From an uncultured Pelagibacteraceae bacterium (GTDB taxonomy: Bacteria > Pseudomonadota > Alphaproteobacteria > Pelagibacterales > Pelagibacteraceae): 64,000 nt of DNA. Each line of letters opens with the position of its first letter. The first letter of the stretch is position 1. Shown here piece after piece: positions 8,947 through 57,502 of this stretch. The notes under the pieces were generated by a model. That model saw nothing but the letters and a program-made list of their open reading frames with translations. It searched no databases and was not told the origin of the DNA. Both the position numbers and the translations under genes were made by a program. The stretch lies in NCBI GenBank assembly GCA_902569975.1, contig CACFWD010000004.1, positions 1 to 64,000 on the forward strand, read 5' to 3'.

Positions 8947-8998
8947 ATCTATTAAACTTGACACCTTCATCATCTCATCTTAAATAAGCGCAATTATT

Positions 8999-9310
8999 AT
9001 GTCAAAAAAATGTGAACTCACCGGAAAAATTCCTATGAAAGGTCATAATGTTAGTCATGCTAACAATAAGACAAAAAGAAGATTTTTACCAAACCTAAAA
9101 AAAGTAAAATTTACAAGTGAGCTTACAGGAAGAAGTTTAAGACTTACAGTAAGTAACTCAGGCGTAAGATCAGTTGACAAAAAAGGTAGTTTTGATGAAT
9201 TTTTAAAAACTGTAAAGAATAAAAATTTATCCCCAAGATTGAAAAAATTAAAAAAGGTAATTTTAATTAAATCTCCCTTCAAAAAAAAACCTATAGCTAA
9301 ATCAGCTTAA
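8999..9310 (+). CDS. rpmB: 50S ribosomal protein L28
   Basis: [33 protein letters not shown]. Confidence 0.95.
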
Positions 9311-36365: not shown

Positions 36366-36378
36366 ATATTTAAATTTT

Positions 36379-37568: not shown

Positions 37569-37571
37569 AAA

Positions 37572-38279
37572 TCATTTTTCTCCAGTTACAATTGGCTCAG
37601 TGCCCTTAGGTCTGTCACCTTCTAAATATTCACCTTTAACTAAATAATAAATTTGTTCTGCAACATTTGTAGTATGATCACCAATACGCTCAACATTTTT
37701 GGTCACAAACAACAAGTGAGTTCCATCGTCTAAATTTTTTTCATTTTCTTTAAGATATTTTATAACTTCTTGCATACAAAGATTTGTTAGATCATCTATT
37801 TGCTCATCACCTTCCCAAACATTTACTGCCATTGGCGCAGATCTTTCTAAATAAGCGTCTAATGTTGATTTTAATTGTTTTTGAACATTGGTAGATACTC
37901 TATTTAGTGAATCTACCAAATTCTTTGGAAGATTTTCATTTAGCAAAAGTGTTCTCTTGGATATATTTTTTGCTAAATCACCTATTCTTTCTAAATCTGA
38001 AGACATTTTCAAAGCCGTTACTGTCTCTCTTAAATCAATTGCCATAGGTTGTCTTAAAGCAATTAAATTTACAACTTGTTGTTCAATCAAGGCTTCATAT
38101 TTATCTATTTTTTCATCATCTTGAATTACATTTTCTGCAATATCGCTATTTCTTGTTGTGATGGCTTGAATTGCTTTACCTAAAGCATCCTCACATGCAC
38201 TTCCCATTTTAATTATATTAGCATTCAGGTTTTTTAGTTCTTCTTCGTAAGATTTAACTGTATGTGGTGCTTCAGACAT
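37572..38279 (-). CDS. phoU: Phosphate transport regulator PhoU
   Basis: SYEEELKNLNANIIKMG...LRQPMAIDLRETVTALKMSSDLERIGDLAKNI. Confidence 0.95.
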   Translation of the reverse strand: MSEAPHTVKSYEEELKNLNANIIKMGSACEDALGKAIQAITTRNSDIAENVIQDDEKIDKYEALIEQQVVNLIALRQPMAIDLRETVTALKMSSDLERIGDLAKNISKRTLLLNENLPKNLVDSLNRVSTNVQKQLKSTLDAYLERSAPMAVNVWEGDEQIDDLTNLCMQEVIKYLKENEKNLDDGTHLLFVTKNVERIGDHTTNVAEQIYYLVKGEYLEGDRPKGTEPIVTGEK

Positions 38280-39055
38280 TATCCAAACCTCCCGGTTATA
38301 TAGTCCTGGGTTTTTGTATTATCAGGATTCTTAAATATTTTATCAGTAGATCCATGTTCTATCAATTGTCCTAAGTGAAAAAAACCTGTATTTTGAGATA
38401 CACGTGCCGCTTGAGCCATAGAATGAGTTACAATTATTATTGTGTGCTCTTTTTTTAACTCATCAATCAATTCTTCAATTTGTGCTGTTGCTATTGGATC
38501 TAATGCTGAACAAGGCTCATCCATTAATATAACTTCTGGTCTTACAGAAATCGCTCTAGCAATACAAAGTCTTTGCTGTTGTCCTCCAGATAATCCAGTT
38601 CCAGGTTCATGCAATCTATCTTTTACTTCTTCCCATAGTGCAGCTTTTTTTAAGCTAGTTTCAACAATTTCATCCATTTCTTGTTTTGATTGAGCCATAC
38701 CATGAATTGTTGGACCGTAAGATACATTTTCATATAAAGTTTTTGGGAAAGGATTAGGTTTTTGAAAAACCATACCAATTTTTTCTCTTAGTCTTACAAC
38801 ATCACAACTTTTATCATTGATATTAAAGTCATTAATTAAAATTTCTCCTTTAACACTGCAGATATCAATTACATCATTCATCCTATTAAGACATCTTAGG
38901 AAAGTTGATTTACCACAACCAGATGGACCAATTAATGCTGTTACTTGATTTTCCTCAATATCTAAACTTATATTAAAGAGCGCTTGTTTTTTTCCATAAA
39001 AAACATCAACATCTTTTGCTTTAATCTTTATCATTTTAACTCCATTTTTTCTCAA
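38279..39055 (-). CDS. pstB: Phosphate ABC transporter ATP-binding protein
   Basis: [43 protein letters not shown]. Confidence 0.96.
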
Positions 39056-40304
39056 ACTTATGTCTTATTATTTGGGCAAATAAGTTCATTGTTATTAAAA
39101 AGCCAAGAAGGACCATTATACATGCCGAAACTTTTTCTACAAATCCTCTTTCAGCACTTTCAGCCCAAATATAAATTTGAACTGGTAAACTTGCAGCAGG
39201 ATCCATAGGTGATCCAGGTATCGTGTTAACAAAAGCAACCATTCCAATTAAAATGAGGGGTGCAGTTTCTCCTAAAGCTTGAGCTAAACCAATTATTGTT
39301 CCTGATAACGTGCCAGGCATTGAAAGAGGAACAGTATGATGCATTGTGGTTTGCATTCGACTTGCTCCCATAGCAAGTGCTGCCTCTCTTATACTTGGCG
39401 GAACTGCTTTTAAAGATGCTCTGGCAGCTATGATTATTGTTGGTAAGGTCATTAAGGACAAAGTAATACCTCCAACTAATGGGGTAGACCTTGGTAGTTG
39501 AAATATAGCCAATAAAACTCCTAACCCTAATAGACCAAAAACTATAGATGGAACTGCTGCTAAGTTATTTATATTTACTTCAATAAAATCAGTAAATCTA
39601 TTTTTAGGGGCAAATTCTTCAAGATAGATTGCTGCTAGAACCGCTACAGGAAAAGCTATCATTAAACAAACAAGTATAGAAAAAATTGAGCCCATAAATG
39701 AACTTGCTATTCCAGCTAGTTCTGCTTCTCTTGAGTCAGCATTTGTAAAAAAGCTAATATTAAATTTACTTTCAACCTTACCATTTGCAACAAGTTGATC
39801 AAAAATTTTTAATTGATAATCGCTTACTCTTCTTTGATCTTCAGGTAAATCTCTTGGATAATTTCCTTTAAAAACTTGATCTAGATCATCTGAAGCAGTT
39901 AAATAAACCTCTTTTGTTTTTCCTATTAAACTAGGGTCATTTAAAAGTTCATTTTTAATTTCTTTTTCAAAGAAATAAGAAACCATTCTCTTCAATTCAT
40001 TTTCTTGATCCTCATTGGCATTTAGATCTAAATCAGCCATTGATTTTAATGCTATATCGTAATAATCAGCGTCTTGTATGTCCTCTTTAGAAGGGTTTTG
40101 TTCTAACATCATTAATTCAGCATCAAAAGTTACTGGAACAATGAGCCAAGTTTTTTGAAAAGCTGAATAGCCAGTTGAAAAAATTTTGAAAATAAAAATT
40201 GTTAAAAATAAAAGTGCCATAAAAATTGCACTTTGACCGTATAAGCGAAATCTCTGCTCAGCCTTGTATCTTTTATTTAATAATTGTTCTTTATTTTTAT
40301 TCAT
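39036..40304 (-). CDS. pstA: Phosphate ABC transporter permease PstA
   Basis: [14 protein letters not shown]..., [47 protein letters not shown]. Confidence 0.95.
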
Positions 40305-41682
40305 ATTTCTCTCTATATTTTTTAACTACTCTTAAGGCCACAATATTTAAACAAAGCGTTACTAAAAATAATGACATACCTAATGCAAAAGCAGCTTGCG
40401 TTTTTGGATCACCAAAAGCTTGGTCACCAATTAGAATAACTACAATTTGAGCTGTAATTGTTGAAGTAGATTCTAATGGATTTAAAGTTAAATTGGCAGC
40501 TAAACCTGAGGCCATAACAACTATCATTGTTTCTCCTATAGCTCTTGAAACACCAAGCAAAATAGATCCAACTATCCCCGGCAATGCCGCAGGAAAAATA
40601 ACTCTCTTGATTGTTTCTGATTTAGTTGCTCCCATAGCATAACTTCCATCTCTTAAACTTTGAGGTACACTTGTAATTACATCGTCACTTAAACTTGAAA
40701 TAAATGGTATGATCATAATGCCCATTACCCCTCCTGCTGCTAAAGCACTTTCAGCTGAAACTTCAAGACCCATAGAGGTTCCTAATTCTTTTAAAAATGG
40801 GCCAACAGTTAGGGCAGCAAAAAAACCATAAACAACTGTTGGTATACCAGCTAAAATTTCAATTAAAGGTTTTGCGTATTGTCTAACTTTATATGATGCA
40901 TATTCAGCTAAATAAATTCCACTCATTAATCCAATTGGGATAGCAACGCACATAGCAATAAATGCAATAAAAAAAGTACCTGCAAAAATAGGGACTGCTC
41001 CAAAAGTATCGGAATACATTGTCGGATCTAAAGCCTCAGAAGAATCTCTAACAAAAGCTTTTGCTGGATACCAGTGAGTTCCAAAGACAAAATCAAATAA
41101 TGGAATTACTTTAAAAAAATCTATAGTTTGAAATATAAGTGAGAAAACTATTCCAACAGTAGTTAATATTGCAGCTAAAGAAGCTGTAAATAAAACTGCG
41201 TTTAAAAATTTTTCAACTGGTTCTCTTGTTCTAGAATTAGATGAAATTCTTTTATATGCGTAAGCAACAGAGGCAATAATTGCAGATAATACTATAACAA
41301 CTTTTGAACTTTGAGCTATTGATCGAAGACTTAAATATTTTTCAGCTGAAGCCTCAATAAAAGGTGTAATTTCTCCAGTGAATTGACCTCGAGACAATGC
41401 TTTTGTTTTTTCGTATATTAAATTTAATTCATCATCAAGATAACCTTGATTTGAATAATCACTTAAGATTAATAGTTTTACAATTGTGGGCTCGAAAATT
41501 GCCCATAAAGAAAAAATTATAAAGGCTGGTATTGCACACCAGATTGAAAGATAATAACCATAAAATTGTGGTAATGCAGTTAATCTTTTTTTTGTAGATT
41601 GAATTGTATATGCTTTTTTGCGTCCAAAATAATAACTTGTGAAACCTAGAAGAACAATAAATGTAAATAATATTAAGTTCAA
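40297..41682 (-). CDS. pstC: Phosphate ABC transporter permease PstC
   Basis: MSGIYLAEYASYKVRQYAKPLIEILAGIPTVVYGFFAAL; AMGATKSETIKRVIFPAALPGIVGSILLGVSRAIGET. Confidence 0.95.
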   Translation of the reverse strand: MNLILFTFIVLLGFTSYYFGRKKAYTIQSTKKRLTALPQFYGYYLSIWCAIPAFIIFSLWAIFEPTIVKLLILSDYSNQGYLDDELNLIYEKTKALSRGQFTGEITPFIEASAEKYLSLRSIAQSSKVVIVLSAIIASVAYAYKRISSNSRTREPVEKFLNAVLFTASLAAILTTVGIVFSLIFQTIDFFKVIPLFDFVFGTHWYPAKAFVRDSSEALDPTMYSDTFGAVPIFAGTFFIAFIAMCVAIPIGLMSGIYLAEYASYKVRQYAKPLIEILAGIPTVVYGFFAALTVGPFLKELGTSMGLEVSAESALAAGGVMGIMIIPFISSLSDDVITSVPQSLRDGSYAMGATKSETIKRVIFPAALPGIVGSILLGVSRAIGETMIVVMASGLAANLTLNPLESTSTITAQIVVILIGDQAFGDPKTQAAFALGMSLFLVTLCLNIVALRVVKKYREKYE

Positions 41683-41716
41683 AGAATCTCCTTTATTGAG
41701 GACTGTACTCTTAATT

Positions 41717-41750
41717 TAAAAAAAAGGGGTCTAAAAAGACCCCCTTTTTT
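41717..41750 (-). terminator. Strong hairpin with T-run between pstS and pstC
   Basis: AAAAAGGGGTCTAAAAAGACCCCCTTTTTT: 7-bp GC-rich stem, 4-nt loop, flanked by A/T tracts on both sides. Confidence 0.88.
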
Positions 41751-41773
41751 ATCATTTGTTAACTGAGGAATAA

Positions 41774-42805
41774 TTAATTACCCATAGCAACTAGTTTGGT
41801 AGCATTAGTTCTAGTTGTTTTATACAACTTAGAGTCTAATGGCACTAAACCAATGTCTGCTAGGTAACCACCTTTTCCAATAGCTTTCTTCGTTGTGAAT
41901 TCTTTCACAAACTCATGTAAGCCTGGAATTACTCCAACGTGAGCTTTTTTCACGTAGAAGAATAAAGGTCTAGCAACAGCATAACTGTAGTCTTGAATAG
42001 ACTTCAATGATGGTTGTCCACCATCAATACTTGCTGCTTGCAATTTATCTTTTGCAGCTAAGAAATAACTGAAACCAAAGAAACCAAACATATCTTTATC
42101 TTGAGTTAACTTTTGGATGATTAAACTATCGTTTTCTCCTACTTCAATAGCAGCACCATCTTCTCTGTAAAGTTTTTGAGGTTTTTTGTATTTTTTATTT
42201 CCAGCTTCAAAACCAGCTTTATAAAGAGCTTTAGCTTCTTTAGTCATACCTTTTTTCATTACTAAAGAATTCCAAGCATCTCTAGTTCCTGATGTTCCTG
42301 GTGGGATCATCACTGAAATTTTTTGTTTTGGTAAACTAGAGTCAATTTGGTCCCAAGTTTTATAAATATTTGGAACTAATTTACCATCAACAACTGTATG
42401 AGCAGCTAGTGCTAAATACAAATGTTCTTTAGTAAAGTTTACTGGTTTTGCATCTTTGCTGTAAGCTAATGTAATACCATCGTTACCAATTACGATCTCA
42501 ACGATTTCATTTACACCATTTTTCTTACATAGAGCTTTTTCTTTATCTTTCATAGCTCTTGATGCGTTTGTAATATCTGGATGTTGTTCACCTACACCAG
42601 CACAGAATAGTTTAGCTCCACCACCAGTACCAGTAGACTCGATTACAGGAGTTTTAAATCCTGAACCACCAAATCTTTCAGCAACAACTGTTGCATAAGG
42701 GAATACCGTAGAAGAACCAACTATCTTAATTTGATCTCTTGCTTGAGCAACAGTTGCAATTGAAAGTGCAACTAAAGAAGCAATTACTATAGTTAGTTTT
42801 TTCAT
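41774..42805 (-). CDS. pstS: Phosphate ABC transporter substrate-binding protein
   Basis: Signal peptide; IKIVGSSTVFPYATVVAERFG; ESTGTGGGAKLFC; PPGTSGTRDAW. Confidence 0.95.
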   Translation of the reverse strand: MKKLTIVIASLVALSIATVAQARDQIKIVGSSTVFPYATVVAERFGGSGFKTPVIESTGTGGGAKLFCAGVGEQHPDITNASRAMKDKEKALCKKNGVNEIVEIVIGNDGITLAYSKDAKPVNFTKEHLYLALAAHTVVDGKLVPNIYKTWDQIDSSLPKQKISVMIPPGTSGTRDAWNSLVMKKGMTKEAKALYKAGFEAGNKKYKKPQKLYREDGAAIEVGENDSLIIQKLTQDKDMFGFFGFSYFLAAKDKLQAASIDGGQPSLKSIQDYSYAVARPLFFYVKKAHVGVIPGLHEFVKEFTTKKAIGKGGYLADIGLVPLDSKLYKTTRTNATKLVAMGN

Positions 42806-42872
42806 TATCTTTAATCCTTTCGTTATTTATTAATTAAAAGATGACTGACTCGTATAAATTTATTGAATCTTT

Positions 42873-42903
42873 AATATTACAGAATTGTTACACTTTTGTT
42901 AAA
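42873..42903 (-). promoter_or_regulatory. Pho-box-like 11-bp tandem repeat upstream of pstS
   Basis: Reverse strand TTTAACAAAAG|TGTAACAATTC|TGTAATATT, about 70 bp upstream of the pstS ATG; resembles the CTGTCATAAATCTGTCATA layout. Confidence 0.7.
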
Positions 42904-42914
42904 AAGGTAACTTT

Positions 42915-43523
42915 TTAGTTGTATTTTTTTGAAATAATTATCTGATCAATATCAGTTTCTAGGCCACCAATACATGAAACAGGGTTTACCTGTTCATTAA
43001 TAGCGAGTTCATTGCTTGGACGTAAAGTTATTTCTAGTTTTACTAAGTTTACTAATTCTTCTCTAATTTCTTCATCATATCTCCAGCTAGGCCATGAACT
43101 TGGGGTTGAAAATATAGAGGTTAAATAACTTGTAGCCATAGTATATCTGTAATTACTCAAATTTTCATTCCTCAATAAAAAATCTCTTACAGAATTAAAA
43201 ATATTCCTACATCTAAAAGAATCTGAAAAATAATTTTCCTTCTTGAGATTTTTATTCATAGGAACAGAAACAATTAAATCAATTGAATTTTTAGAATACG
43301 AGGTAACTACGTCTGTATAAAATTCAGCTTCAGTAACTTCTAAATGATCTTTTATAGAAGGATATGAAGTTTTTAAATCTGCTTCTAATCTAAAAATTCC
43401 AATATCAAAAACTGTAAGTTGCTGATTTCTTAATAATGTTGTGATATCTTTAGAAAAAACACTTGTTGTTATAGAGCTTAATAAAAAAGCAAAAATTAAA
43501 ATATTTTTGAATATTTTAACCAT
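42915..43523 (-). CDS. Uncharacterised exported protein within the Pho locus
   Basis: Signal peptide MVKIFKNILIFAFLLSSITTSVFS; 202 aa; no family recognised; between phoR and pstS. Confidence 0.7.
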   Translation of the reverse strand: MVKIFKNILIFAFLLSSITTSVFSKDITTLLRNQQLTVFDIGIFRLEADLKTSYPSIKDHLEVTEAEFYTDVVTSYSKNSIDLIVSVPMNKNLKKENYFSDSFRCRNIFNSVRDFLLRNENLSNYRYTMATSYLTSIFSTPSSWPSWRYDEEIREELVNLVKLEITLRPSNELAINEQVNPVSCIGGLETDIDQIIISKKYN

Positions 43524-43613
43524 ATAAAAAATTAATTAAAAGATTAACATTAATCAAGTAAAGAATTGTTAAAAAAATCTTCTAAAACTATTACAATATA
43601 ACACTTTTTAAAT

Positions 43614-44759
43614 TTAAGTTTTCGCTGGTAAATAAATTTGAATTTCAGTTCCTTGGTTTTCCTCACTTAGAATCTCATAATGTCCACGATGTTGAGTAAC
43701 TATATGTTTAACTATAGCTAATCCTAAACCGGTTCCACCTACTTTATTACTTTGTTCGAGATCTACTCTAAAAAATCTTTCTGTAATTCTAGAAATATAT
43801 CTTTGAGGAATACCAACACCTTCGTCTTTAACACTGATCATAAAATTTTTTTCTAACAATTTACCGTCGCTAATTTTGCTTGATATAAAAATAGACTTAT
43901 TTTCCTTTGAATACTTAATTGCATTATCTAAAAGATTAGAAAAAACAGTTTGTAATTTTTTTTCATCTCCAATAACAATTGTTGGATTTGCGAGAGATAA
44001 ATTAATATTTAATTTCTTTTTTTTTAAAACAATCTCAAAATTACTGACGATAGTTTTGAAAAGATTATTTATATCAACTAAAGAGTTTGGCCTAATGTGT
44101 TCTTCTAATTCAATTCTTGTGAGTATTAAAAGATCATTAATTAAATTTTCCATTCTATTTGATTGATCAGTCATTATTTTCATAAATTTTTTTTTTGCTT
44201 TATCGTCTTCTGCCGCTGGACCTTCAATAGTTTCTAGAGATCCTTTGATAGCCATCAAGGGTGTTCTTAATTCATGGCTTACATTTGCTACAAAATCAGT
44301 TTTAAATTTTTGTGCTTTTGTAATTTCAGTAAAATCTTTTAGAAATAATACAACAGAGTCTGGTTCAGTAAATAAATGAGTTGGGCCTGGAATAATATAA
44401 ATTTTATAAAATTGATATGACGGCAAGTCTATTTCAACATCAATACTTTTTGTTTTATTTTCAACTATAGCTTTTTCAATATTTTCTATTAATTCTGGTT
44501 TTCGAATTACAGAAGATATGTTTTTATCAATTAAATTACTTCCAAATCTTTTTAATGCACTTGGATTGGCATATTTAATTATGTTAAATTTATTTAATGC
44601 AAAAAACTGATCCTCTAGTTCATCAATAATTACTCTTTTTGTTTTTTCCTCTCTTTTATTAATTATTGTAGCGGTATTTATTGATTTGTTTTTTTTTTGA
44701 TTAAGTAAATAGAGAAGATAAACTATTACAACTATGAGTAGAATGATGAAATATTCCAT
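43614..44759 (-). CDS. phoR: Phosphate regulon sensor histidine kinase PhoR
   Basis: PAS-like domain, FVANVSHELRTPLMAIKGSLETIEG, DNAIKYSKEN, GGTGLGLAIVKHI; in the pst/pho locus. Confidence 0.9.
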   Translation of the reverse strand: MEYFIILLIVVIVYLLYLLNQKKNKSINTATIINKREEKTKRVIIDELEDQFFALNKFNIIKYANPSALKRFGSNLIDKNISSVIRKPELIENIEKAIVENKTKSIDVEIDLPSYQFYKIYIIPGPTHLFTEPDSVVLFLKDFTEITKAQKFKTDFVANVSHELRTPLMAIKGSLETIEGPAAEDDKAKKKFMKIMTDQSNRMENLINDLLILTRIELEEHIRPNSLVDINNLFKTIVSNFEIVLKKKKLNINLSLANPTIVIGDEKKLQTVFSNLLDNAIKYSKENKSIFISSKISDGKLLEKNFMISVKDEGVGIPQRYISRITERFFRVDLEQSNKVGGTGLGLAIVKHIVTQHRGHYEILSEENQGTEIQIYLPAKT

Positions 44760-44823
44760 AAATTTAGACGGCTTAATTTTGCATCATTACACTTTTTAAT
44801 GCAAACAAATTAAGAAAAATTAA

Positions 44824-45831
44824 CTAATGATTTGGTGAAATATTGTTAAAAAATATTTTTGCTGTTTCTTCCCAAGTGAATTTTTTTGCAAATTCAAGAC
44901 AATCATTTCTATTAACTTTCAAAGCTTTATGGGCCGAAACTTTAAGATCATTATCTAAACAATTTATTTTGGATCCTTCAAATATATCTTTAGGACCTGG
45001 AACAGGATACGCAGCAACAGGTGTTCCACAATTTAAAGCTTCTGTAACTACAATTCCAAATGTATCTGTTTTACTAGGGAAAACAAAAACATCAGAGGAT
45101 GCAAAATGTGATGCTAATTCACCATTTGTTTTTTCCCCTAAAAAAATATCTTTAGGAAATTCTTTTTTCAATTTTTTTAAATCAGGTCCTTTTCCTATAA
45201 TTATTTTTGTACCTTCTAAATCACATTCTAAGAAAGCTCTTATGTTTTTTTCAACTGCAACTCTTCCAACATAAATCCAAATAGGTCTTTTATGAGGTAA
45301 ATCAATTTTTTTAGGGTTCTTAAAAGCTCCATGATTTCCTCCTCTAGTCCAAGTAATCATTTTATTGTCATCTATACCTATATCGATTAATTCTTTTCTC
45401 ATAGACTCTGTAGTTACTAAAATTCTCTCAGCCTTATTATGAAAATTTGCTAAAAATTTTTCGGCCCATTTTGCAGGTATAATAGGAAAGTAAAGTTTTA
45501 GATATTTATCAAATCTTGTATGGAAACTCGTAGTAAACTTTAGATTATTTTTTAAACAATATCTTCTTGCCATAGTCCCTATGGGGCCTTCAGTAGCGAT
45601 ATGAATTGCATCAGGTTTTATTTTCTTTATTAAACTATCAACTCTTGGCCAAACATTAATTGATAATCTAATTTCATTATATTTCGGCATCGGAAAAGTT
45701 AAAAATAAGTCGGGTGTAATATATTCTATAGTATGACCTTGTTCTTTTAATACATTGCCTGTTTCATGTAAGGTTCTTACAACACCATTTACTTGTGGAA
45801 AATATGCATCTGTTGCAATTAAAATTTTCAT
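44824..45831 (-). CDS. GT4-family glycosyltransferase, Agt-like
   Basis: ILIATDAYFPQVNGVVRTLHETGNVL; EGPIGTMARRYCLKN; GT4 C-terminal SSDVFVFPSKTDTFGIVVTEAL; 3 bp downstream of the PlcP-like gene. Confidence 0.88.
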   Translation of the reverse strand: MKILIATDAYFPQVNGVVRTLHETGNVLKEQGHTIEYITPDLFLTFPMPKYNEIRLSINVWPRVDSLIKKIKPDAIHIATEGPIGTMARRYCLKNNLKFTTSFHTRFDKYLKLYFPIIPAKWAEKFLANFHNKAERILVTTESMRKELIDIGIDDNKMITWTRGGNHGAFKNPKKIDLPHKRPIWIYVGRVAVEKNIRAFLECDLEGTKIIIGKGPDLKKLKKEFPKDIFLGEKTNGELASHFASSDVFVFPSKTDTFGIVVTEALNCGTPVAAYPVPGPKDIFEGSKINCLDNDLKVSAHKALKVNRNDCLEFAKKFTWEETAKIFFNNISPNH

Positions 45832-45834
45832 TAA

Positions 45835-46647
45835 TTATGAAGCTTTTTTTAATTCTTCGGTTTTAATTGGTTTAATTATTTCTTTAGTATCTAAATATTG
45901 TTCTCTTATTTTGTCCCAATATAATATTTCAAAACTACCATCATAATTTTCAGCTAATGCAGTACAAGATTCTACCCAGTCTCCACAATTTAAATAATTG
46001 ACCCCATTAAAATCTCTATCCTCAGCATGATGGATGTGACCACAAATAATTCCATCAAATTTTTTTCTTTTTGCATAATTTGAGACTGTTTTTTCGTATT
46101 CACCAATATATTTAACTGCATTTTTAACTTTATACTTTAAAAATTTTGCAAGAGACCAATATTCTTTTCCTCTCAACCTTCTAAAAAAGTTAATTATTAC
46201 ATTTAATTGTAACAATAAATTATAGGCTATTGATCCAAGTTTAGATAACCATTTAGCATGTTTCATAACCCCATCCCAAGCATCACCATGAACAACAACA
46301 TATTTTTTTCCAGCATTTGTTTCATGAATAACTCTATTAACCATATGGATGTCACCAAAATGCATCGGAATAAATTTTCTTAACATTTCGTCATGATTAC
46401 CCATTATGTAGAAAACTTTAGTACCATGCCTTGCTTTTCTTAAAATTTTTTGGATTACATCATTATGTTCTTGAGGCCAAAAAAAACTTTTTTGCATTTC
46501 CCAGATATCTATAATGTCTCCTACAAGATAAAGATTTTCGGATCTTGATTTTTTAAAAAACTCTAAAAGTTTATTCGCCTGACAACCCTTAGTACCTAAA
46601 TGCACATCAGAAATGAATATACTTTTATATTTAAGTATATTAGGCAT
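45835..46647 (-). CDS. Metallophosphoesterase, PlcP/UDP-2,3-diacylglucosamine hydrolase-like
   Basis: ISDVHLGTKGCQANKLLEF; VGDIIDIW; IMGNHDEM; VHGDAWDG; CGHIHHAEDRDFNGVNYLNCGDWVESCTAL. Confidence 0.86.
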   Translation of the reverse strand: MPNILKYKSIFISDVHLGTKGCQANKLLEFFKKSRSENLYLVGDIIDIWEMQKSFFWPQEHNDVIQKILRKARHGTKVFYIMGNHDEMLRKFIPMHFGDIHMVNRVIHETNAGKKYVVVHGDAWDGVMKHAKWLSKLGSIAYNLLLQLNVIINFFRRLRGKEYWSLAKFLKYKVKNAVKYIGEYEKTVSNYAKRKKFDGIICGHIHHAEDRDFNGVNYLNCGDWVESCTALAENYDGSFEILYWDKIREQYLDTKEIIKPIKTEELKKAS

Positions 46648-47630: not shown

Positions 47631-47972
47631 TTATTTTAGTCTTCCTAAATAATTTACAAGAATAACTCCTATAATTATTAGAATTATACCTACAGTTCCA
47701 TAGATATTTGGCAATTGATTATATTTTAAAATACCAAAGATCGTTACTCCTGTAATTGTTAAACCGCCATAAGTAGCATAAGCAAAACCTACTGGGATCA
47801 TCATCATAACTTTAGATAAACAAAAAATGCAAAGAGTAATTGATATTATACAAAATATAGTTGGCATTAAATTTGTAAAACCATTTGTGTTCTTTAAAAA
47901 ACCACTTGAGGCAATACCTAATATCACTGCAAAAAATAAATATAGATATCCTGAAATTTTTAAAGAAATCAT
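47631..47972 (-). CDS. SMR-like small four-TM transporter (atypical: Glu14 position is Gly)
   Basis: Collinear with EmrE: YLYLFFAVILGIASSGFLKNTNGFTNLMP...IPVGFAYATYGGLTITGVTIFGI...GVILVNYLG. Confidence 0.75.
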   Translation of the reverse strand: MISLKISGYLYLFFAVILGIASSGFLKNTNGFTNLMPTIFCIISITLCIFCLSKVMMMIPVGFAYATYGGLTITGVTIFGILKYNQLPNIYGTVGIILIIIGVILVNYLGRLK

Positions 47973-48005
47973 TATTATATAATACTATAGTTTATTTTTT
48001 CATAT

Positions 48006-48200
48006 ATGAATACAAGAAATACCAATAGAATAACTTTTTATCCTGGCCCTGGAGCAAAACTTCAAGAGTGGTCTACTTATCAAAATGAATTTTTTGGTAG
48101 ATGTGATCCCCATTATCAAATGATTAAAAAAAAACTTTAAAGTGGATAAAAAAAAACGGGACAAGATGAAATTATACCAAAAAAAAATTAACCATATACA
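48006..48200 (+). pseudogene. Decayed N-terminal fragment of a class V (PhnW/alanine-glyoxylate-like) aminotransferase
   Basis: MNTRNTNRITFYPGPGAKLQEWSTYQNEFFGRCDPHYQMIKKKL* then, after frame changes at two A9 tracts, TLKWIKK and TGQDEIIP; no C-terminal domain follows. Confidence 0.65.
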
Positions 48201-48268: not shown

Positions 48269-49576
48269 TTAATTAAACCACTGTTTATAATCATTAAAAA
48301 GACGTTTTAAATTTTTTTGTGACAACCATGATAAATGATACAAAGCATCTGAAGAAACAGATCCTCCTATTCTTAAAATCAATACTTTTCCTTTACCAGA
48401 AAATTTATAATTTACATTAGGTTTTAGATAAATTGAATCTCCAGGATTAAAATTTTGTTTTATCTTTTTATTAAAATTAATCTTTATTTTTGAAGAGCCT
48501 ATGTTGTAGAGATACTGGTGGGCTGGAACTGAAAATCCAATATTATTCTTGTTATTCAAAATATTGAGTTCAAATGCTTTTGACATTGGTAAATGTGATA
48601 AATTTGTAAGTTCAACAAATAAGAAATCTTTTTTATATTTAGACGGATAAAACCAAGATCTATTGCTTTTATATTTCTGGATTTTAACATAATCGTTTTG
48701 TATTGGTGGCAATAAATCTCTAGAGTTTATTTTCAAATAAGTAGCAATTTTATCTATAACTTTTTTATTTGGTAATTTTTTATTTTTTAACAATCTGTTT
48801 AAATTTAAACCTGTTAATTCTTTAAAGTTATGATCTGAAATTGATGAATTTTTTAAATGATATAATAAAGATGATTTAAAAGCATAAATTTTATTTTTTA
48901 AATTAAGATTAAACTTTTTAGTTAATTCATACCCTATAGCTGAAAATTCATTTAAAGATTCTGTATTCAGTTTATCTGCATATGTTAATGCTAGAATATT
49001 TCCTAATAAATTTTTTTTATTTTTCCTAGTTGTAAAAGAATGAGGAATGTATGGAGAAATATACATAGAATCACCAGTGTTCATTTTAGCTACTCTTTTT
49101 TTATTATTTAAAATATAATAAAAATTTACAGGGCCTATAAAATATGTGAATTGATGAAGAAAATGACCATTATTAAATTTTACACCTTTGTTGTTGGGAT
49201 TTGAATTATCAACCACCTTTAATTGTTGTATCCATTCAGGTCTGAATGTAGATACTTTACTCATTACCGTATCTTTATATAAATAATATGCTTCACCTCC
49301 ACGATACATTTTTCTTTCTGTAGAATTTGAGGCTTTACTTTTAAAAATTTTGAAACCATGTTTAGCATCGTCCTCTACACTAAAAAACTCATTATAGTTT
49401 ACTGGCCATATTTTTACTGCTTTCTCAATTAAATCGAATTCAAGTTTTTTTTTACCTTCCAAAATTTGATTGATCTTTTTTTTTGTCAAACCTAAATCTA
49501 ATGCTGCATCCTCAGGTCTTCTTTTTAAATCATTAAGAATTTTTTTAAATTTATAGTTGAATATGTTTTTTGGCAT
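48269..49576 (-). CDS. mpnS: Methylphosphonate synthase-like HTH-cupin iron oxygenase (MpnS/HEPD family)
   Basis: Two HTH/cupin repeats; NNGHFLHQFTYFIGPVNFYY gives HxxxQ and MYISPYIPHSF gives the second His (MpnS-type 2-His-1-Gln); phosphonate gene context. Confidence 0.82.
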   Translation of the reverse strand: MPKNIFNYKFKKILNDLKRRPEDAALDLGLTKKKINQILEGKKKLEFDLIEKAVKIWPVNYNEFFSVEDDAKHGFKIFKSKASNSTERKMYRGGEAYYLYKDTVMSKVSTFRPEWIQQLKVVDNSNPNNKGVKFNNGHFLHQFTYFIGPVNFYYILNNKKRVAKMNTGDSMYISPYIPHSFTTRKNKKNLLGNILALTYADKLNTESLNEFSAIGYELTKKFNLNLKNKIYAFKSSLLYHLKNSSISDHNFKELTGLNLNRLLKNKKLPNKKVIDKIATYLKINSRDLLPPIQNDYVKIQKYKSNRSWFYPSKYKKDFLFVELTNLSHLPMSKAFELNILNNKNNIGFSVPAHQYLYNIGSSKIKINFNKKIKQNFNPGDSIYLKPNVNYKFSGKGKVLILRIGGSVSSDALYHLSWLSQKNLKRLFNDYKQWFN

Positions 49577-49722
49577 AATCTTATTCTTTAATCGTTCTAA
49601 ATTAAGATAATTATTTCTTTAATATTTATTATTTTTTAGAATAAATCTTAATTATCATTAATTTTGTTCGCTTACAAGTTAATCATTTAAATATAACTAA
49701 AACTCAATCAATAGTGTAAATA

Positions 49723-50853
49723 TTAATTTTTTGTAAATTTTTTGTTAAATCCTACTAATGCTTTCTTATAATCTTCAACAGTATCTATTTCTTTCCAGCC
49801 ACTTTCAATGATCACACAGTGAACTTTAATACCAATATCTACTAGTTCTTGAATAAAATCTGTAAGGTAAGCTTTTTGGAAAATTTTAGCTCTTTGAAAA
49901 GGCTTATTCCAATATATTTTTTTTAATCGATGGAAATGTTCTTTAAAAATTTCTGTTCCACGATTGGATAATTTTATCATTCCAATAAACTCACCATGAA
50001 CCTCTTCATTACCCGTATTTATTTTACCAATTTTTTCGACCTCATTATTTGAATTAAATATTACATTTTCTGCTTCTGATATAGGGTGATCTTTGCGTCC
50101 TACATAATAGCCTCGCCAATCAATATCAACTACAACAGAAATATCATGATCTGAATTTAACGTTCTTTCAACCACATAAGAGTCAAACAATATGTCAGAA
50201 TATGAAATTATAATATTCCCATTAATAACTTTTTCGGCATAAAAAATAGAATTTAAAATATTGTTATTTTTATAATCAGTATTTTCAAAGTACTTTATAC
50301 CTTTATAATTAATTTTTTCTTTTTTATATCCCCTAATTAAAGAAATATCTTTTACTCCACATTTTTTATATGCATCTAATTGACGTTGAAGAAGAGTTTT
50401 TCCACCAAAATCCAACATACACTTTGGAAGGTTTTCTGTATGCTTTTTAAGTCTACTACCCAAACCAGCTGCGATGATTAATGCTTTATTATTATTTTTG
50501 TTTAATGAGTTTTCAATATTTCTTATTTGCTCTTCATCAAGATTATTTTCTTTTATAGATCTTATTAATGAAACTATTCTTGGATTCTTTTCTATATATT
50601 CTCCTATATCAGGTGCAACATCGCCTTTTGATATACCTGCCAAATCATTGAGTATATTAATATTGATTTTCAAAAATTTAGAAATTTTTTTTATTACAAT
50701 TTGCTTTGGAGCTGAACGTTTTTCTTTTTCAATATCATTCAAATATGAGGCAGCTATACCAATTTTAGCAGCTAATTCTCTTTGACCAAAACCATTTTTT
50801 ATTCTAGCCTCACGAACTAATGCACCAAAATTTTTTTTTTTACTCATCACCAA
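49723..50853 (-). CDS. XRE-type HTH fused to a nucleotidyltransferase (PntC-like phosphonate cytidylyltransferase candidate)
   Basis: N-terminal FGALVREARIKNGFGQRELAAKIGIAASYLNDIEKEKRSAP (HTH) plus ALIIAAGLGSRLKKHTENLPKCMLDFGGKTLLQRQLDAY. Confidence 0.82.
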   Translation of the reverse strand: MVMSKKKNFGALVREARIKNGFGQRELAAKIGIAASYLNDIEKEKRSAPKQIVIKKISKFLKININILNDLAGISKGDVAPDIGEYIEKNPRIVSLIRSIKENNLDEEQIRNIENSLNKNNNKALIIAAGLGSRLKKHTENLPKCMLDFGGKTLLQRQLDAYKKCGVKDISLIRGYKKEKINYKGIKYFENTDYKNNNILNSIFYAEKVINGNIIISYSDILFDSYVVERTLNSDHDISVVVDIDWRGYYVGRKDHPISEAENVIFNSNNEVEKIGKINTGNEEVHGEFIGMIKLSNRGTEIFKEHFHRLKKIYWNKPFQRAKIFQKAYLTDFIQELVDIGIKVHCVIIESGWKEIDTVEDYKKALVGFNKKFTKN

Positions 50854-50861
50854 TTTTTTAC

Positions 50862-51965
50862 TTAATTTAAACCACGAATGATATTGTAAATATCTTTTCC
50901 ATCAATTTTGATAGGATTATTTCCAAGTCTTAATAAATTTATACCATTAATTATATTTTCTGAACTTTTATTTATATCAATATTCAATTTTGTTAAATCA
51001 TCCTCTAAATTTGCTTGTTTTTTAATTGATGATATTTGTGAACTAAAATCATCAATGTTTTGAACGTTGAATAAATTGAATATCTGATCATATCTTTTTT
51101 TTAAATCAAAAGATGTTTCTGATTTATCTAAATTCAAATAATTAAATCTAAAGAATTTTTCAAAAAATAATCCAACAGCATGACCATGGCTTATATTAAA
51201 TAAAGACGTAAAAGGATAAGATGTAGCATGTGGTGCTGTCGTTTTTGAGATGCTGATAGCTTTTCCTGCTAAATTTGCGGCTATACTCATCTCTGCTGCA
51301 TTGTTTAAATTAGGGTTTTTCAAATAAGGTAAATAACTAACTAAAGAAATTTTAAGAGATTTTAAAGCATAGTCGACACTTTTTTCATTAGATTTTTTCG
51401 ATATTAGAGACTCAAGTGCTTGAGCAATAGCATCAAAACCTGCTGATGCTTTAATTTTACCTGGAGCTGAAATTAAATATTCAGGAACTAAAAAGTAATT
51501 ATCGGGAACTAGTAATTCACTTTCAAATGAATGTTTAATACCATTCACATAAATAACAGCATTAGAGGTAACTTCAGCCCCTGAACCAGCTGTAGTTGGA
51601 ATAACAGATAATTTAGTATATTTTTTTTGGAAAGGATAAGAATAATTTTCAATTAATTCTTTAAGGTCGTCTCTAACATCGACCACATTAGCTATTTTAG
51701 CATAATCCATGATAGTCCCACCACCTATTGCTAGGATTAAATCTGGTTTAAAATTTCTTACTTCTTTAATAATTTCAATCAATTCCTCAAGTATTGGAAT
51801 CTCTGATTTTTTATAAAATAATTTTATTTCTTGATTTGGATTAATATCTTTCGACAAAGTTGTAGCTCCAGAGGAAATAAAAGATTTTTTTCCACATAAA
51901 ATAAAAATTCTTTTAAAACTTTTATCATTTATAAAGTTTTTGATATCGTCTATTGAATTAATCAT
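50862..51965 (-). CDS. Iron-type alcohol dehydrogenase, phosphonoacetaldehyde reductase candidate
   Basis: LAIGGGTIMDYAKIA, PTTAGSGAEVTSNAVIY, NISHGHAVGLF; next to Ppd and PepM. Confidence 0.87.
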   Translation of the reverse strand: MINSIDDIKNFINDKSFKRIFILCGKKSFISSGATTLSKDINPNQEIKLFYKKSEIPILEELIEIIKEVRNFKPDLILAIGGGTIMDYAKIANVVDVRDDLKELIENYSYPFQKKYTKLSVIPTTAGSGAEVTSNAVIYVNGIKHSFESELLVPDNYFLVPEYLISAPGKIKASAGFDAIAQALESLISKKSNEKSVDYALKSLKISLVSYLPYLKNPNLNNAAEMSIAANLAGKAISISKTTAPHATSYPFTSLFNISHGHAVGLFFEKFFRFNYLNLDKSETSFDLKKRYDQIFNLFNVQNIDDFSSQISSIKKQANLEDDLTKLNIDINKSSENIINGINLLRLGNNPIKIDGKDIYNIIRGLN

Positions 51966-53059
51966 TAATTCATAAATTGATTTTTTATCTTTATTAAATC
52001 TTTTGGTCTTGGTAAATTTTTTGTTTTAGAATTTGCAATCTTTACTTCCATAAAACTAAGTTTTTTAGATAATAAAAAATTAAGAATATTTTTTTTTAAA
52101 TTTTTGCTATTTTTAATACAATAATATTTTTTGAAACCTAAGCTTTTAGATAATTTTTCAAGATTAATTTTATTTGCATAAGTAACTTGGCCACCGACAG
52201 AATCATGTGTATTATTATTTAAAAGAATATATTTGTAGTTTTTACCCGCGAATGTGCCTGCAGATTTAATTGATCCTAAATGCATTAGAAAAGATCCATC
52301 TCCATCAATACAGACTGTATCATTTTTATTATTCATAGAATATCCTAAAGCCACTGATGACGTGTGACCCATTCCACCAACCATATAAAAATCTTTACCT
52401 TTTTTGATTTGAAATTTTTTTCTTAAATACATCAATTCTCTAGAATTATAACCTGTACTAGAAATAACTTTAGTTTTATTAGACAAATTTTGTAATAAGG
52501 TTTTTAAAAATAATTCTTTTTCTAAAGAATAAAAATCTCTTTTTGGTTTAATTTTAGCTTTTTTTGCTAATACTTTATTTTCTATAAGACATGCAACAAT
52601 ACTTTTATTTTTTTTTGCAAGTTTTATTTGTTTATCAAATTTTTTAAGATCAGGTTTTGACCTTAAAATTGTAAATTTGATTCCCAAAAGCCTGAGTAAT
52701 TCCCTAGTAATTTTACCTTTTACATTATGTTGAGGTTCATCTTTTAAACTAGGTGAGCCTCTCCAGCCAATAACCAAAATTAATGGTATCGAATATACTT
52801 TTTTATGGGCTATTGATATAAGAGGATTTAAAGCATTAGATAGACCTGAATTTTGCATATAAATAACTGGAACTTTCTTTGTAGATAAATATTGACCAAT
52901 ACCGATAGAAACTGCTGCTCCCTCATTAGTTGCTATTATGTGTTTTTTATTGTTTTTTAAGGATGAGGAAAAATGTTTTAAAACACTATCAGGTACTCCA
53001 GAAAAAAAGTCACATTTATTTTTTTTTAGTAAATTAATTAGTCCCTCTACTTCAATCAT
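51965..53059 (-). CDS. Phosphonopyruvate decarboxylase
   Basis: ThDP enzyme: FFSGVPDSVLKHFSS, ATNEGAAVSIGIGQYL, GWRGSPSLKDEPQHNVKG, GMGHTSSVALGYSMN, CIDGDGSFLMHLGS. Confidence 0.92.
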   Translation of the reverse strand: MIEVEGLINLLKKNKCDFFSGVPDSVLKHFSSSLKNNKKHIIATNEGAAVSIGIGQYLSTKKVPVIYMQNSGLSNALNPLISIAHKKVYSIPLILVIGWRGSPSLKDEPQHNVKGKITRELLRLLGIKFTILRSKPDLKKFDKQIKLAKKNKSIVACLIENKVLAKKAKIKPKRDFYSLEKELFLKTLLQNLSNKTKVISSTGYNSRELMYLRKKFQIKKGKDFYMVGGMGHTSSVALGYSMNNKNDTVCIDGDGSFLMHLGSIKSAGTFAGKNYKYILLNNNTHDSVGGQVTYANKINLEKLSKSLGFKKYYCIKNSKNLKKNILNFLLSKKLSFMEVKIANSKTKNLPRPKDLIKIKNQFMN

Positions 53060-54356
53060 TTTTAATTAAGCTAATTATTTCTTTAATAGGTATTATTTTT
53101 TTATCAGCCTCTAGTGCACGACTATTTTTCAAAATTGTTCGTGCGGTATTCTGCATTGCAGGATAAGCCGCTCTTAGTAATTGATTAGCATAGATGACTA
53201 GTTTGAATCCATGTTTTATGAGATCTTTCTCGTAAACTTTTGAATAAGTCGAAGGCACAGATACTAATGGTTTATAATATTTGCTTTTAGTAAATTTTTT
53301 TGCAAAAGAAAATATCTGAGAAGGTGTTTTTTCTTTGCTATGAATCAAAATTGCATCAGCTCCAGCTTTTGAATATATTTCTGCTCTTTTTAATGCATCT
53401 TGTAATCCTTTGCCTAATATAAAACTTTCAATTCTTGCAATGATCATGAAATCATTTGACTGTCTAGTTTTGCATATTTTTTTAATTTTATTTGCAAATA
53501 AATTTGGTTTATCTTGTTTAGTACCAGTTTGATTCTTGAATAGTGAATTTTTTTTGAGTCCAATTTTGTCCTCCATAATTATTGCAGAGACACCTGATCT
53601 TTCTAAAGATCTAATTAAATAAGGAAGATGTTCTATCTGACCACCATTATCTGCATCAAATACTACTGGCTTTGTCGTTACATCCATCATGTCGTTTAAT
53701 GAAGAAATTCTAGCTGAGAAAGATAAAGATGAGTTGTCCGGTAAACCTTTTGTAGCTGAGTCAGTTAAACTAGATGACCACATACCATCAAATTCTAAAT
53801 TTTTATTTTTTTTTTCTACTTTCAAATTTTCTATAATCAAACCAGTTAATGAATTATGAGATTCTAAAATTCTGACTATATTTTTAGATGAAATTAAACG
53901 TTTAAGTCTACTGACTCTATTTTGTGGAGAAATTGCAATTTCTAAAATTCTATTTTTAATTAATGAAGATGAAATATTTTTTGTATATTTTGGTTCAATT
54001 AATTTACCAGACCATTTTTTAAGAGCTTTGATAACATCTTGTCGAGTTTTTTTTTGGACACCTTTTTTCCAATCATCTCCATGTACAACATAATGAGGTT
54101 TAATAAGGTTTAAATTTGATACATAACTTAAAGTATGTTGTGGTATTACTTTTTTTACGTATTTGATATTTTGAACAATAATTTTTCTTCTTTTATAATC
54201 AAGATATGGAATACTTTTATATGAAGCAATTGCTTCATCTGTCAAAAGACCAACGATAACTTCTCCATATCTACTTGCTGTTCTTAATATATTAATATGA
54301 CCTTCATGGATCATATCTACTGATAAACCTACATAAACTTTTTTTTTTAATTTCAT
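53052..54356 (-). CDS. Cytidylyltransferase-phosphoenolpyruvate mutase fusion (PepM)
   Basis: N-terminal YVGLSVDMIHEGHINIL (HxGH) domain; C-terminal PepM with diagnostic EDKIGLKKNS (EDKx5NS). Confidence 0.95.
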   Translation of the reverse strand: MKLKKKVYVGLSVDMIHEGHINILRTASRYGEVIVGLLTDEAIASYKSIPYLDYKRRKIIVQNIKYVKKVIPQHTLSYVSNLNLIKPHYVVHGDDWKKGVQKKTRQDVIKALKKWSGKLIEPKYTKNISSSLIKNRILEIAISPQNRVSRLKRLISSKNIVRILESHNSLTGLIIENLKVEKKNKNLEFDGMWSSSLTDSATKGLPDNSSLSFSARISSLNDMMDVTTKPVVFDADNGGQIEHLPYLIRSLERSGVSAIIMEDKIGLKKNSLFKNQTGTKQDKPNLFANKIKKICKTRQSNDFMIIARIESFILGKGLQDALKRAEIYSKAGADAILIHSKEKTPSQIFSFAKKFTKSKYYKPLVSVPSTYSKVYEKDLIKHGFKLVIYANQLLRAAYPAMQNTARTILKNSRALEADKKIIPIKEIISLIKND

Positions 54357-54422: not shown

Positions 54423-55166
54423 TTATCTTTCTGATAATGCTTTTGATTTATTCTTGCTAGTTTCTTTATCTTTAAAATATTCATCATATTTAGAACCATT
54501 TTCACTAGGAGTATATGTGTAATATATTATTCTTCTAATTTGATCAGAATCATTCTTTTTTGATCGATGAGGACAAGTATTAGAAAATATTATCATGTCA
54601 CCAACTTCTAAATCTATTACTTTAAACTTTGTTTTACTCTCAACTTCATCAGATAAAGCGGGCGTACCATCTTTTTTAGTATTTTTATAGAGTTGGGCAA
54701 AATCTCCATTATGAGATTTTGCTAGTTCGAGGGCTCCATTTTCTTTGTCACATTTATCTATAGCTATTAATGCACTAATAAAAAAATCTCCATACTCATA
54801 CCAGCCTTTTTTTTTCTCATCCTTAGAATTAATGAATTCAAATATACCATCATAATGAGCAAAAAAACCTTCGCCTCCAGGTGGTTTAGAATTAAATTTA
54901 TCTTTAAATATTAAAAATTCTTTTTTAAAAATTTTTTTTAATAATATTGATATTTTTTCATTTAAATCAATTAAGTTTGTTCCTTTATCATAAAGTTTTT
55001 CAATTCTTCTTAGATTGTTTGAATTATCAAAATATTTGACAGTACCAGAGGCGTTATTTATTTCGTCTATTAACTTAGATACAAAATGTTTACTTAAAAA
55101 ATTTTTGAAAACAAAATATCCTTCATTATCAAATTTTTTTTTGTAATCTAAAGAGCTAATATTCAT
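54423..55166 (-). CDS. Phytanoyl-CoA dioxygenase (PhyH)-like Fe/2-oxoglutarate oxygenase
   Basis: FFAHYDGIFEF (HxD), NTCPHRSKKNDSDQIRRIIYYTY (distal His, Arg). Confidence 0.83.
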   Translation of the reverse strand: MNISSLDYKKKFDNEGYFVFKNFLSKHFVSKLIDEINNASGTVKYFDNSNNLRRIEKLYDKGTNLIDLNEKISILLKKIFKKEFLIFKDKFNSKPPGGEGFFAHYDGIFEFINSKDEKKKGWYEYGDFFISALIAIDKCDKENGALELAKSHNGDFAQLYKNTKKDGTPALSDEVESKTKFKVIDLEVGDMIIFSNTCPHRSKKNDSDQIRRIIYYTYTPSENGSKYDEYFKDKETSKNKSKALSER

Positions 55167-55183
55167 AATCTATCCTGCTAATA

Positions 55184-56305
55184 CTAAACACATATATTTG
55201 AAAAATTTTCATCAAAATATTTTATTGTATTTTCATAATTATAAAAATTTGTTTTTATAAAGTTATTAATTTCATTTTTATCAAATTCATTTGAGGCATT
55301 ATCAATAATTTTATCAATTTCAATTATCTGATTTTTATTAAATTCATATCCAAATTTATCTTTAATAAAATCTTCTATTGGTTGCAAATCTTTAAACATT
55401 CCAAATTTTTCATTATGAATTTTATCAAAATCGTTATAATAAATTACAGGTTTTTTAAATATCATCATATACTCAATTGAAATACCCGAATTATCAGTGA
55501 TTAAACACTTGGCTTTTTGCATAGCTTCAAGATTTTCCGGATTATCATCAAATATAAAATTTTTGTTCTGAAATCTTTCTTTATACATTTTCATCAAGGA
55601 TTGTGATCTTTTTATGGTTTCTGGATGAGGTCTAAATCTTACCTTGTAACCTAAATTTAACAGGTTAACTAATATTTCTTCAAAATCCTCATTAATATAA
55701 TTTGATCTATTTTTATTCCATGAAGGTGCTACTAAAATTTCATCATTATCAATTTCATCGATTTTATTTTTTAAATAATCAAAATAAAAAAAACCTGATT
55801 TAATAAGTTTTTTTTTTTTTAAATTTTCTATCTTTTCTCTATGTTGAATTTCATTAATTTGATAATCACCATTACATAATATTGTATCATAATTGTCAAA
55901 AGCTCCTGAGGTGTAAATTTTTGTAGTGCTTACAGCACCATGGAAATAATAGATATAATTTTTTACAAATTCATTTTTTTTTACAATATTGTTATTAAGA
56001 TCAGTTAAAGTCATAAACATATTATCAGTTACAACACTTTTAAAAAAATACTGAAATAAAAAACCCTGTCCAATATATAGATTTTTAACATCTAGCTGTA
56101 ATATTTTATCGTTTATGTCAGATGAAACATAGTAAATTTCTCCAGGATATTTTTTTGATAAATATTCAATAATCAAATAACTATATTTTAAATACGACTT
56201 ATTCTCCGAGTAAAATATAAATCTTGGTTTCTTCTCGCTAAGTTTATTTATTTCTCTAAATATTGTAAAAAAATTTTTGAAATTAAATGTCAATTTTTTA
56301 AACAT
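55184..56305 (-). CDS. CDP-glycerol glycerophosphotransferase-like (TagB/TagF) enzyme
   Basis: LVAPSWNKNRSNY, VRFRPHPETIKRSQ, AKCLITDNSGISIEYMMIFKKPVIYY. Confidence 0.82.
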   Translation of the reverse strand: MFKKLTFNFKNFFTIFREINKLSEKKPRFIFYSENKSYLKYSYLIIEYLSKKYPGEIYYVSSDINDKILQLDVKNLYIGQGFLFQYFFKSVVTDNMFMTLTDLNNNIVKKNEFVKNYIYYFHGAVSTTKIYTSGAFDNYDTILCNGDYQINEIQHREKIENLKKKKLIKSGFFYFDYLKNKIDEIDNDEILVAPSWNKNRSNYINEDFEEILVNLLNLGYKVRFRPHPETIKRSQSLMKMYKERFQNKNFIFDDNPENLEAMQKAKCLITDNSGISIEYMMIFKKPVIYYNDFDKIHNEKFGMFKDLQPIEDFIKDKFGYEFNKNQIIEIDKIIDNASNEFDKNEINNFIKTNFYNYENTIKYFDENFSNICV

Positions 56306-56311
56306 TAATTA

Positions 56312-57502
56312 CTATCTTGTTCTTCCATAAATATCATTATATCTAATAATATCAGTTTCCTTTAAAATTGATCCTATTTGAGCTTCAATTATTCTAACAG
56401 GTTTTTTATTTGGATTTTCTATTCTATGAACTGAACCTTGTGGAATAAAAATAGTTTCATCTGGTTTCATTGTAAAATATTTCTTATTTAAAGTAATTTT
56501 AGGTTTACCTTGAGTAACTACCCAGTGCTCCGCTCTATGATGATGTTTCTGAAGACTTAATACACCTTTGGGTTTAACATATAGTTCTTTAATTAAGAAT
56601 TCCTTACCGTTAAATAAATTTACATAACTACCCCAAGGTTTATGAAATACATTTTTCTTTTTAAAATAATATCTTTTATTTCGTCCATACATTTTACAAA
56701 TTTCTTTCCAGGACCCTAAATCAGACCAGGGAATATCTAATTTGATAGCATTGATATCTTTAGCTTTTTCTAAGATTGCATAGTCAAAAGACTTAGCTGT
56801 TACTTTGGTAAATGCTTGTTTGTTTAAATAATATACATTACTTTTATATTTTGCTTTTGACAAAGCTTTGTTACAGTTTCGGTAAATCTTAGGTTGATAT
56901 TTTTTAAAATTGTTAATAATTGAATCTTTTCTCAAATAAAAAATTCCAGAATTCCAATAACCTTTTTTACTAATTATTTTTTTGGCTTTGGCCTCTTTAG
57001 GTTTTTCAACAAACTTAGTTACTTTATTATTTTTTGTCAAAAAATATCCAAATTCACTTGAAGGCATTGTTGGTTTAATTCCAAAAATAAAGACATTATT
57101 TTGTGTAAGTTTCTTTTGGTTTTTTTGGATAGCTTTATTGAACAAAGCAATCTTCTCTATCAAATGATCAGCTGTTAAGAACATTAAAGGTTGTTGATTT
57201 GGAATATCTTTTATTAATGCGGCACTCAGTATTGCAGGAGCTGTATTTCTTTTTGTAGGTTCCAAAACTATTTTAAATTTTTTTATTTTATGTCTTTTTA
57301 AATGCTGTTTAACTTTTTTTAAATATTTTGAGTTAGTGCTTATAATCGGTACATCAAATATAGATGCTTTAATTCTCTCAAGAGTTTTACTTAACAAAGT
57401 CCAATTACCAAAATTGATAAACTGTTTAGCTTGAGGATTTTTAGCTTTTGGCCAAAGTCTTGTTCCGGCTCCACCACATAAAATGACTGGGCGAATTTTC
57501 AT
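56312..57502 (-). CDS. manC: Mannose-1-phosphate guanylyltransferase / mannose-6-phosphate isomerase type II
   Basis: RPVILCGGAGTRLWPKAKNPQAKQFI; FVEKPKEAKAKKII; cupin KEFLIKELYVKPKGVLSLQKHHHRAEHWVV. Confidence 0.9.
   Translation of the reverse strand: MKIRPVILCGGAGTRLWPKAKNPQAKQFINFGNWTLLSKTLERIKASIFDVPIISTNSKYLKKVKQHLKRHKIKKFKIVLEPTKRNTAPAILSAALIKDIPNQQPLMFLTADHLIEKIALFNKAIQKNQKKLTQNNVFIFGIKPTMPSSEFGYFLTKNNKVTKFVEKPKEAKAKKIISKKGYWNSGIFYLRKDSIINNFKKYQPKIYRNCNKALSKAKYKSNVYYLNKQAFTKVTAKSFDYAILEKAKDINAIKLDIPWSDLGSWKEICKMYGRNKRYYFKKKNVFHKPWGSYVNLFNGKEFLIKELYVKPKGVLSLQKHHHRAEHWVVTQGKPKITLNKKYFTMKPDETIFIPQGSVHRIENPNKKPVRIIEAQIGSILKETDIIRYNDIYGRTR

Follow-up and report, generated by a model that had tools for sequence, protein, structure and literature searches.

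A probable methylphosphonate biosynthesis and activation locus, apparently chimeric, in a SAR11 genome

Known methylphosphonate systems and the present locus

Methylphosphonate (MPn) made by marine microbes feeds the aerobic release of methane in oxygenated seawater. MpnS proteins from Pelagibacterales (PMC9381506) and SAR11 bearing pepM (PMC8931226) are already published, while MPn production itself had not been shown in SAR11 (PMC8931226). Many phosphonate pathways include nucleotidyl activation: the cytidylyltransferase (CT) domain of Fom1 activates 2-hydroxyethylphosphonate (HEP) to CMP-HEP, and LicC-type enzymes encoded near pepM were proposed as phosphonate activators, as two tested ones proved to be (PMC6697681). 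In the SAR11 mpnS loci of the described kind (L011-L016 here; PMC9381506; PMC8931226), mpnS is accompanied by CT-PepM, phosphonopyruvate decarboxylase (Ppd) and an alcohol dehydrogenase (ADH), and a separate CT stands beside mpnS, mostly divergent from it. The locus presented here, which lies in a window of 64,000 nucleotides, has the same pathway genes, but an HTH-LicC-like enzyme (HTH-NTP) replaces the separate CT, mpnS lies on the same strand as the pathway genes, and PepM belongs to a HEP-type lineage. Thus, an MPn pathway in SAR11 is of an already known kind; what is new, as far as the searched literature goes, is the HTH-LicC-like replacement, the separate assembly and the pattern of one CT per product, and no paper combining SAR11, phosphonate and cytidylyltransferase was found there.

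The host genome is SAR11 (863 kb, 62% complete), and its named relatives are Pelagibacteraceae or Pelagibacterales. All five consecutive minus-strand genes reported by the sequence-only reading were found at full length (Table 1), and its description of a complete-looking set for MPn biosynthesis held at the level of family matches for PepM, Ppd and MpnS. CT-PepM, Ppd and ADH overlap successively by 8 and 1 bp, HTH-NTP follows after 8 bp, and mpnS after a further 146 bp. Judged by its matches and packing, this five-gene arrangement is not due to chance. The bounds first given to the locus, 48269-54356, likely omit members, namely the upstream PhyH-type and transferase-like genes (54423-56305) and the downstream SMR gene (47631-47972).

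Table 1. Features of the locus and its flanks in the window
Feature	Position	Strand	Basis
SMR-family transporter	47631..47972	-	PF00893; 94% DNA identity to L087
Probable N-terminal remnant of AEP-transaminase-like protein, weak evidence	48006..48134	+	38% over 40 aa, E 0.0016
mpnS, predicted methylphosphonate synthase, HTH + double cupin	48269..49576	-	6b9s E 1.7e-108; residue table
HTH_3 + LicC/PntC-like nucleotidyltransferase (HTH-NTP), probable phosphonate cytidylyltransferase	49723..50853	-	domains and PDB matches
Fe-type ADH, probable phosphonoacetaldehyde reductase	50862..51965	-	PF00465/PF25137; 81% to L092 ADH
Ppd, phosphonopyruvate decarboxylase	51965..53059	-	TIGR03297 above cut-off
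CT-PepM, Fom1-like CT domain (aa 1-140) + PEP mutase (aa 151-433)	53052..54356	-	TIGR02320; 5x3d E 5e-45; motifs
PhyH-type Fe/2-oxoglutarate dioxygenase, possible second tailoring step	54423..55166	-	PF05721
Transferase-like protein, FRPHPE + ITDNSG motifs, candidate phosphonate-to-glycan transferase	55184..56305	-	
Mannose-1-phosphate guanylyltransferase/mannose-6-phosphate isomerase type protein (manC), conserved site flank	56312..57502	-	TIGR01479 351 bits, just under cut-off

With TIGR02320, PepM reaches 368 bits (cut-off 319.6), and its motif EDKIGLKKNS, pointed out already from the sequence, fits EDKxxxxxNS; Ppd scores 352.6 bits against TIGR03297 (cut-off 312.5). A PepM paralogue on another contig (C14) of the same genome fell below the PEP mutase cut-off. 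The ADH belongs to the general Fe type, reaching 104.8 bits with the phosphonate Fe-ADH model TIGR03405 (cut-off 423.7), and family and gene order suggest that it serves as phosphonoacetaldehyde reductase. The pathway would then run from PEP to phosphonopyruvate by PepM, to phosphonoacetaldehyde by Ppd, to HEP by the ADH and to MPn by MpnS; the fused Fom1-like CT would make CMP-HEP, HTH-NTP would make CMP-MPn, and a transferase might place the phosphonates on a surface glycan. Judged by the gene neighbourhood, the cell would make methylphosphonate esters, with the final acceptor and the roles of the transferase and PhyH presumed. PhnJ was not found in this genome, which at 62% completeness says little about the absence of C-P lyase. 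Taken as a whole, an MPn biosynthesis and activation locus of chimeric make-up is an explanation that we hold with reasonable, though not full, confidence.

A probable HEP-type backbone with mpnS

Where does such a locus come from? Its closest counterpart is a HEP-type locus of another SAR11 genome (L092 of G385), in which the order is CT-PepM-Ppd-ADH-HTHNTP-PhnD-PhnC-PhnE-SMR. Both share the backbone from CT-PepM to HTH-NTP (91% identity for CT-PepM, 83% for Ppd, 81% for ADH and 74% for HTH-NTP) and the SMR gene, but between HTH-NTP and SMR the window has mpnS where L092 has phnDCE. In trees the window is sister to L092 with support 100/91 for PepM and 95/95 for ADH, and this pair falls outside the main MPn clade (98/93) and does not group with L011. 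In relatives the SMR gene follows phnDCE as the end of an HTH-NTP/phnDCE/SMR block, and with one of these (L087) the window shares DNA of 94% identity that runs through SMR and ends at 47983. The rest has other affinities: MpnS is nearest to that of L011 (81%, the next being 59%); for the transferase-like and manC genes, L016 is nearest. From these different nearest relatives, mpnS appears to have joined the backbone separately, and the MPn pathway of this locus seems to have been put together on its own, as a chimera with a HEP-type backbone. At the DAGK/manC-ilvD site, mpnS probably took the position of phnDCE in a backbone that ended in HTH-NTP/phnDCE/SMR. Most other SAR11 mpnS loci found here lie at this site too, and the manC-type flank recurs in other mpnS loci. 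The probable remnant between SMR and mpnS matches a PhnW-like protein that adjoins CT-PepM in another locus (L114), and frame breaks follow it; an aminotransferase-type phosphonate locus may have stood here before. Searched as DNA, the interval between SMR and mpnS yielded only AT-rich chance matches.

Two candidate activating enzymes

The CT domain fused to PepM finds its best match in 5x3d (E 5e-45), and its catalytic motifs HxGH (HEGH) and ISSS (NISSS) are intact. The entry 5x3d, named PEP phosphomutase, we take to be Fom1; the window domain differs in standing outside any fosfomycin pathway. HTH-NTP joins an HTH_3 domain to a LicC/PntC-like domain (PF12804, 4.8e-10; 1jyk, 7e-13; 6pd1, 5e-8), is linked to pepM in the window and in L092, and shares with the PntC/LicC cytidylyltransferases (PMC6697681) the NTP_transf_3 domain with the active-site motifs GLGSRL...PK and EID; unlike them it has an N-terminal HTH and no aminotransferase fusion, and its phosphonate substrate is putative. 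Because the fused CT is Fom1-like, both it and HTH-NTP are candidate activators. The sequence-only reading had spoken of an extra CMP-activation enzyme; a second nucleotidyltransferase is indeed present, but a second one is usual in SAR11 MPn loci, and what is unusual, as the sequences go, is its kind.

How usual it is became visible from 398 genomes of the order, in which 46 loci around pepM or mpnS were annotated (PepM above cut-off in 42 genomes, mpnS in 7). Loci with ADH but neither mpnS nor aminotransferase are called HEP type, and none of these 20 has a separate CT, the fused CT being the only one. A separate CT stands beside mpnS in eight of nine MPn loci, the window not counted, and is found in 11 of 12 loci with a PhnW-like aminotransferase, for which the label 'AEP type' is a presumption, since the aminotransferases match PhnW models below cut-off only. 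The Fisher P of 2e-6 for MPn against HEP type is too small, because the sequences are related and the few MPn loci lie on about three PepM backgrounds, so that 8/9 versus 0/20 is not a matter of 29 independent points. The separate CTs of MPn loci form a single clade (99/95) and those of aminotransferase loci another (100/100), except for one CT in L168 that falls among fused domains. Motifs of the fused CT are broken in four of 20 HEP-type loci, in six of 12 aminotransferase-type loci and, among MPn loci, in L011. The fused CT also persists in aminotransferase-type loci that lack ADH, where it is broken in some cases, and so it may act on something other than HEP in part of the loci. In the window locus the separate CT is absent and HTH-NTP stands in its place, while absence from the remainder of a 62% complete genome carries little weight. 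Probably, then, the fused domain makes CMP-HEP and HTH-NTP makes CMP-MPn, doing the job of the separate CT. The comparison yields a rule that can be tested: each phosphonate would have its own cytidylyltransferase, HEP being served by the fused CT, and MPn or a transaminated product by a second enzyme. Such a rule would be in keeping with seawater polysaccharides that bear both MPn and HEP.

It might also be that MPn is made here while HTH-NTP serves an imported phosphonate, AEP or phosphocholine, or mainly regulates, the fused CT activating HEP and/or MPn. We regard this as the most serious competitor, though clearly the less probable account. Orthologues of HTH-NTP occur at 67-93% identity in ten other genomes, phnDCE follows directly in seven of eight readable contexts, and among these ten genomes (completeness 83-92%) eight lack a PepM above cut-off and all lack PhnJ. 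Being usually a neighbour of phnDCE, HTH-NTP might act on some other phosphonate or on a phosphate ester; moreover, the closest solved relatives are LicC, acting on phosphocholine, and PntC, acting on AEP. On the other hand, phnDCE is gone from the window and mpnS is present, a second CT is found in nearly all other SAR11 MPn loci, and the tested LicC-type enzymes near pepM were phosphonate activators. AEP in particular is an unlikely substrate here because the locus has no intact transaminase.

The arrangement in those other genomes deserves attention of its own. HTH-NTP lies directly before phnDCE in L086, L087, L088, L089, L092, L093 and L095, often with an SMR gene and mostly in genomes without PepM, and in L090 and L093 LicD genes lie close to this position on the chromosome. 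The HTH-NTP/phnDCE block may be a salvage-to-surface module for phosphonates or phosphoesters. These contexts fit import followed by CMP activation, and they also fit plain import of phosphate; PhnD1 of picocyanobacteria binds phosphite, phosphate and MPn and is proposed to belong to a phosphate transporter (PMC10284923). The exchange of phnDCE for mpnS offers a route to the substrate of a SAR11 enzyme that is otherwise tied to phnDCE. One could go further and suppose that HTH-NTP is a cytidylyltransferase for MPn or small phosphonates in general, that elsewhere it works with PhnDCE so that imported phosphonates are built straight into surface glycans, no synthesis or C-P lyase being involved, and that here synthesis by MpnS replaced import of the same compound; this extension is speculative, and we give it rather little credence.

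The dioxygenase, the cupin and the flanking genes

DhpA hydroxylates HEP and PhnY* hydroxylates MPn, and the PhyH-type dioxygenase encoded next to CT-PepM could likewise make a hydroxylated HEP or hydroxylated MPn as the final product, with MPn an intermediate or side product. This is doubtful: although two HEP-type loci have an orthologue immediately before CT-PepM (L174, 65%; L185, 57%) and the protein matches the NCBI methylphosphonate hydroxylase model NF052437, the match is weak (65 bits where the cut-off is 500), the gene has no orthologue in the other SAR11 MPn loci, and its orthologues occur without mpnS. More distant PhyH-type dioxygenases (32-35% to that of the window) recur in aminotransferase-type loci (L159, L162, L163, L165, L166), where they might hydroxylate a phosphonate.

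The transferase-like protein adjoins mpnS in L016 and L012 and CT-PepM in L098. It has no significant Pfam match (best E 0.056), and its relatives match Epimerase_2 or GT9 weakly. Sequence and profile searches of the PDB gave no relative, so that a TagF-like label is unproven, and its AlphaFold model (pLDDT 43.5) is unusable.

What product does the cupin make? It aligns with MPnS of Nitrosopumilus maritimus (6b9s/6b9t) over residues 9-435 at 45% identity (E 1.7e-108), and with the 2-hydroxyethylphosphonate dioxygenase (HEPD) of Streptomyces albus (6b9r) at 31% (E 2.5e-63). In the alignment, H138, Q142 and H179 correspond to the metal ligands H148, Q152 and H190 of the N. maritimus enzyme. The sequence-only reading had assigned the cupin to the MpnS type on a Gln in place of Glu at the metal site; alignment to MPnS and HEPD puts Gln there, but the argument is insufficient because S. 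albus HEPD has the same H-x3-Q...H triad at the same positions, and Gln as a proof of MPnS is ruled out. The assignment itself stands on the full-length match, the ligands and the residues F149, H151 and I184 (N. maritimus numbering), which are F, H and I in the window and in seven SAR11 relatives, and L, Y and G in S. albus HEPD. Residues adjacent to the Gln reportedly decide between MPnS and HEPD products, according to the 2017 MPnS structure paper. The AlphaFold model is poor (pLDDT 56.2, TM 0.25), and Foldseek of it ranks 6b9s first, which lends weak support only. On the evidence of sequence, it is well supported that the protein, a predicted enzyme of SAR11, is a methylphosphonate synthase; that it is instead a Gln-type HEPD, the locus ending in hydroxymethylphosphonate, is very improbable in view of these three residues and the much stronger score to MPnS, the shared triad and 31% identity notwithstanding.

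No relative of this MpnS was found in phage records. A divergent MpnS-like cupin, 41% to that of the window, is encoded in another genome (L021 of G306, 8431-9702), with PepM on another contig and no second CT nearby, which counts against the preferred account; it has L149 as in HEPD, and H151 and I184 as in MPnS, and its product is uncertain. In one single-cell genome (L017, 9995-11298) mpnS is broken into two frames, by decay or sequencing error. That the window locus is itself decaying or not expressed, as the aminotransferase remnant, the broken L017 gene and the possibly recent arrival of such SAR11 accessory genes might suggest, is hardly to be expected of five full-length reading frames with intact catalytic motifs and tight operon packing.

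Finally, the region 32711-46647 of the window is a phosphorus-related neighbourhood, with genes for polyphosphate kinase, a likely exopolyphosphatase, a PhoB-like regulator, PhoU, Pst components and a PhoR-like kinase. It also holds a glycosyltransferase and metallophosphoesterase pair, which may serve lipid remodelling.
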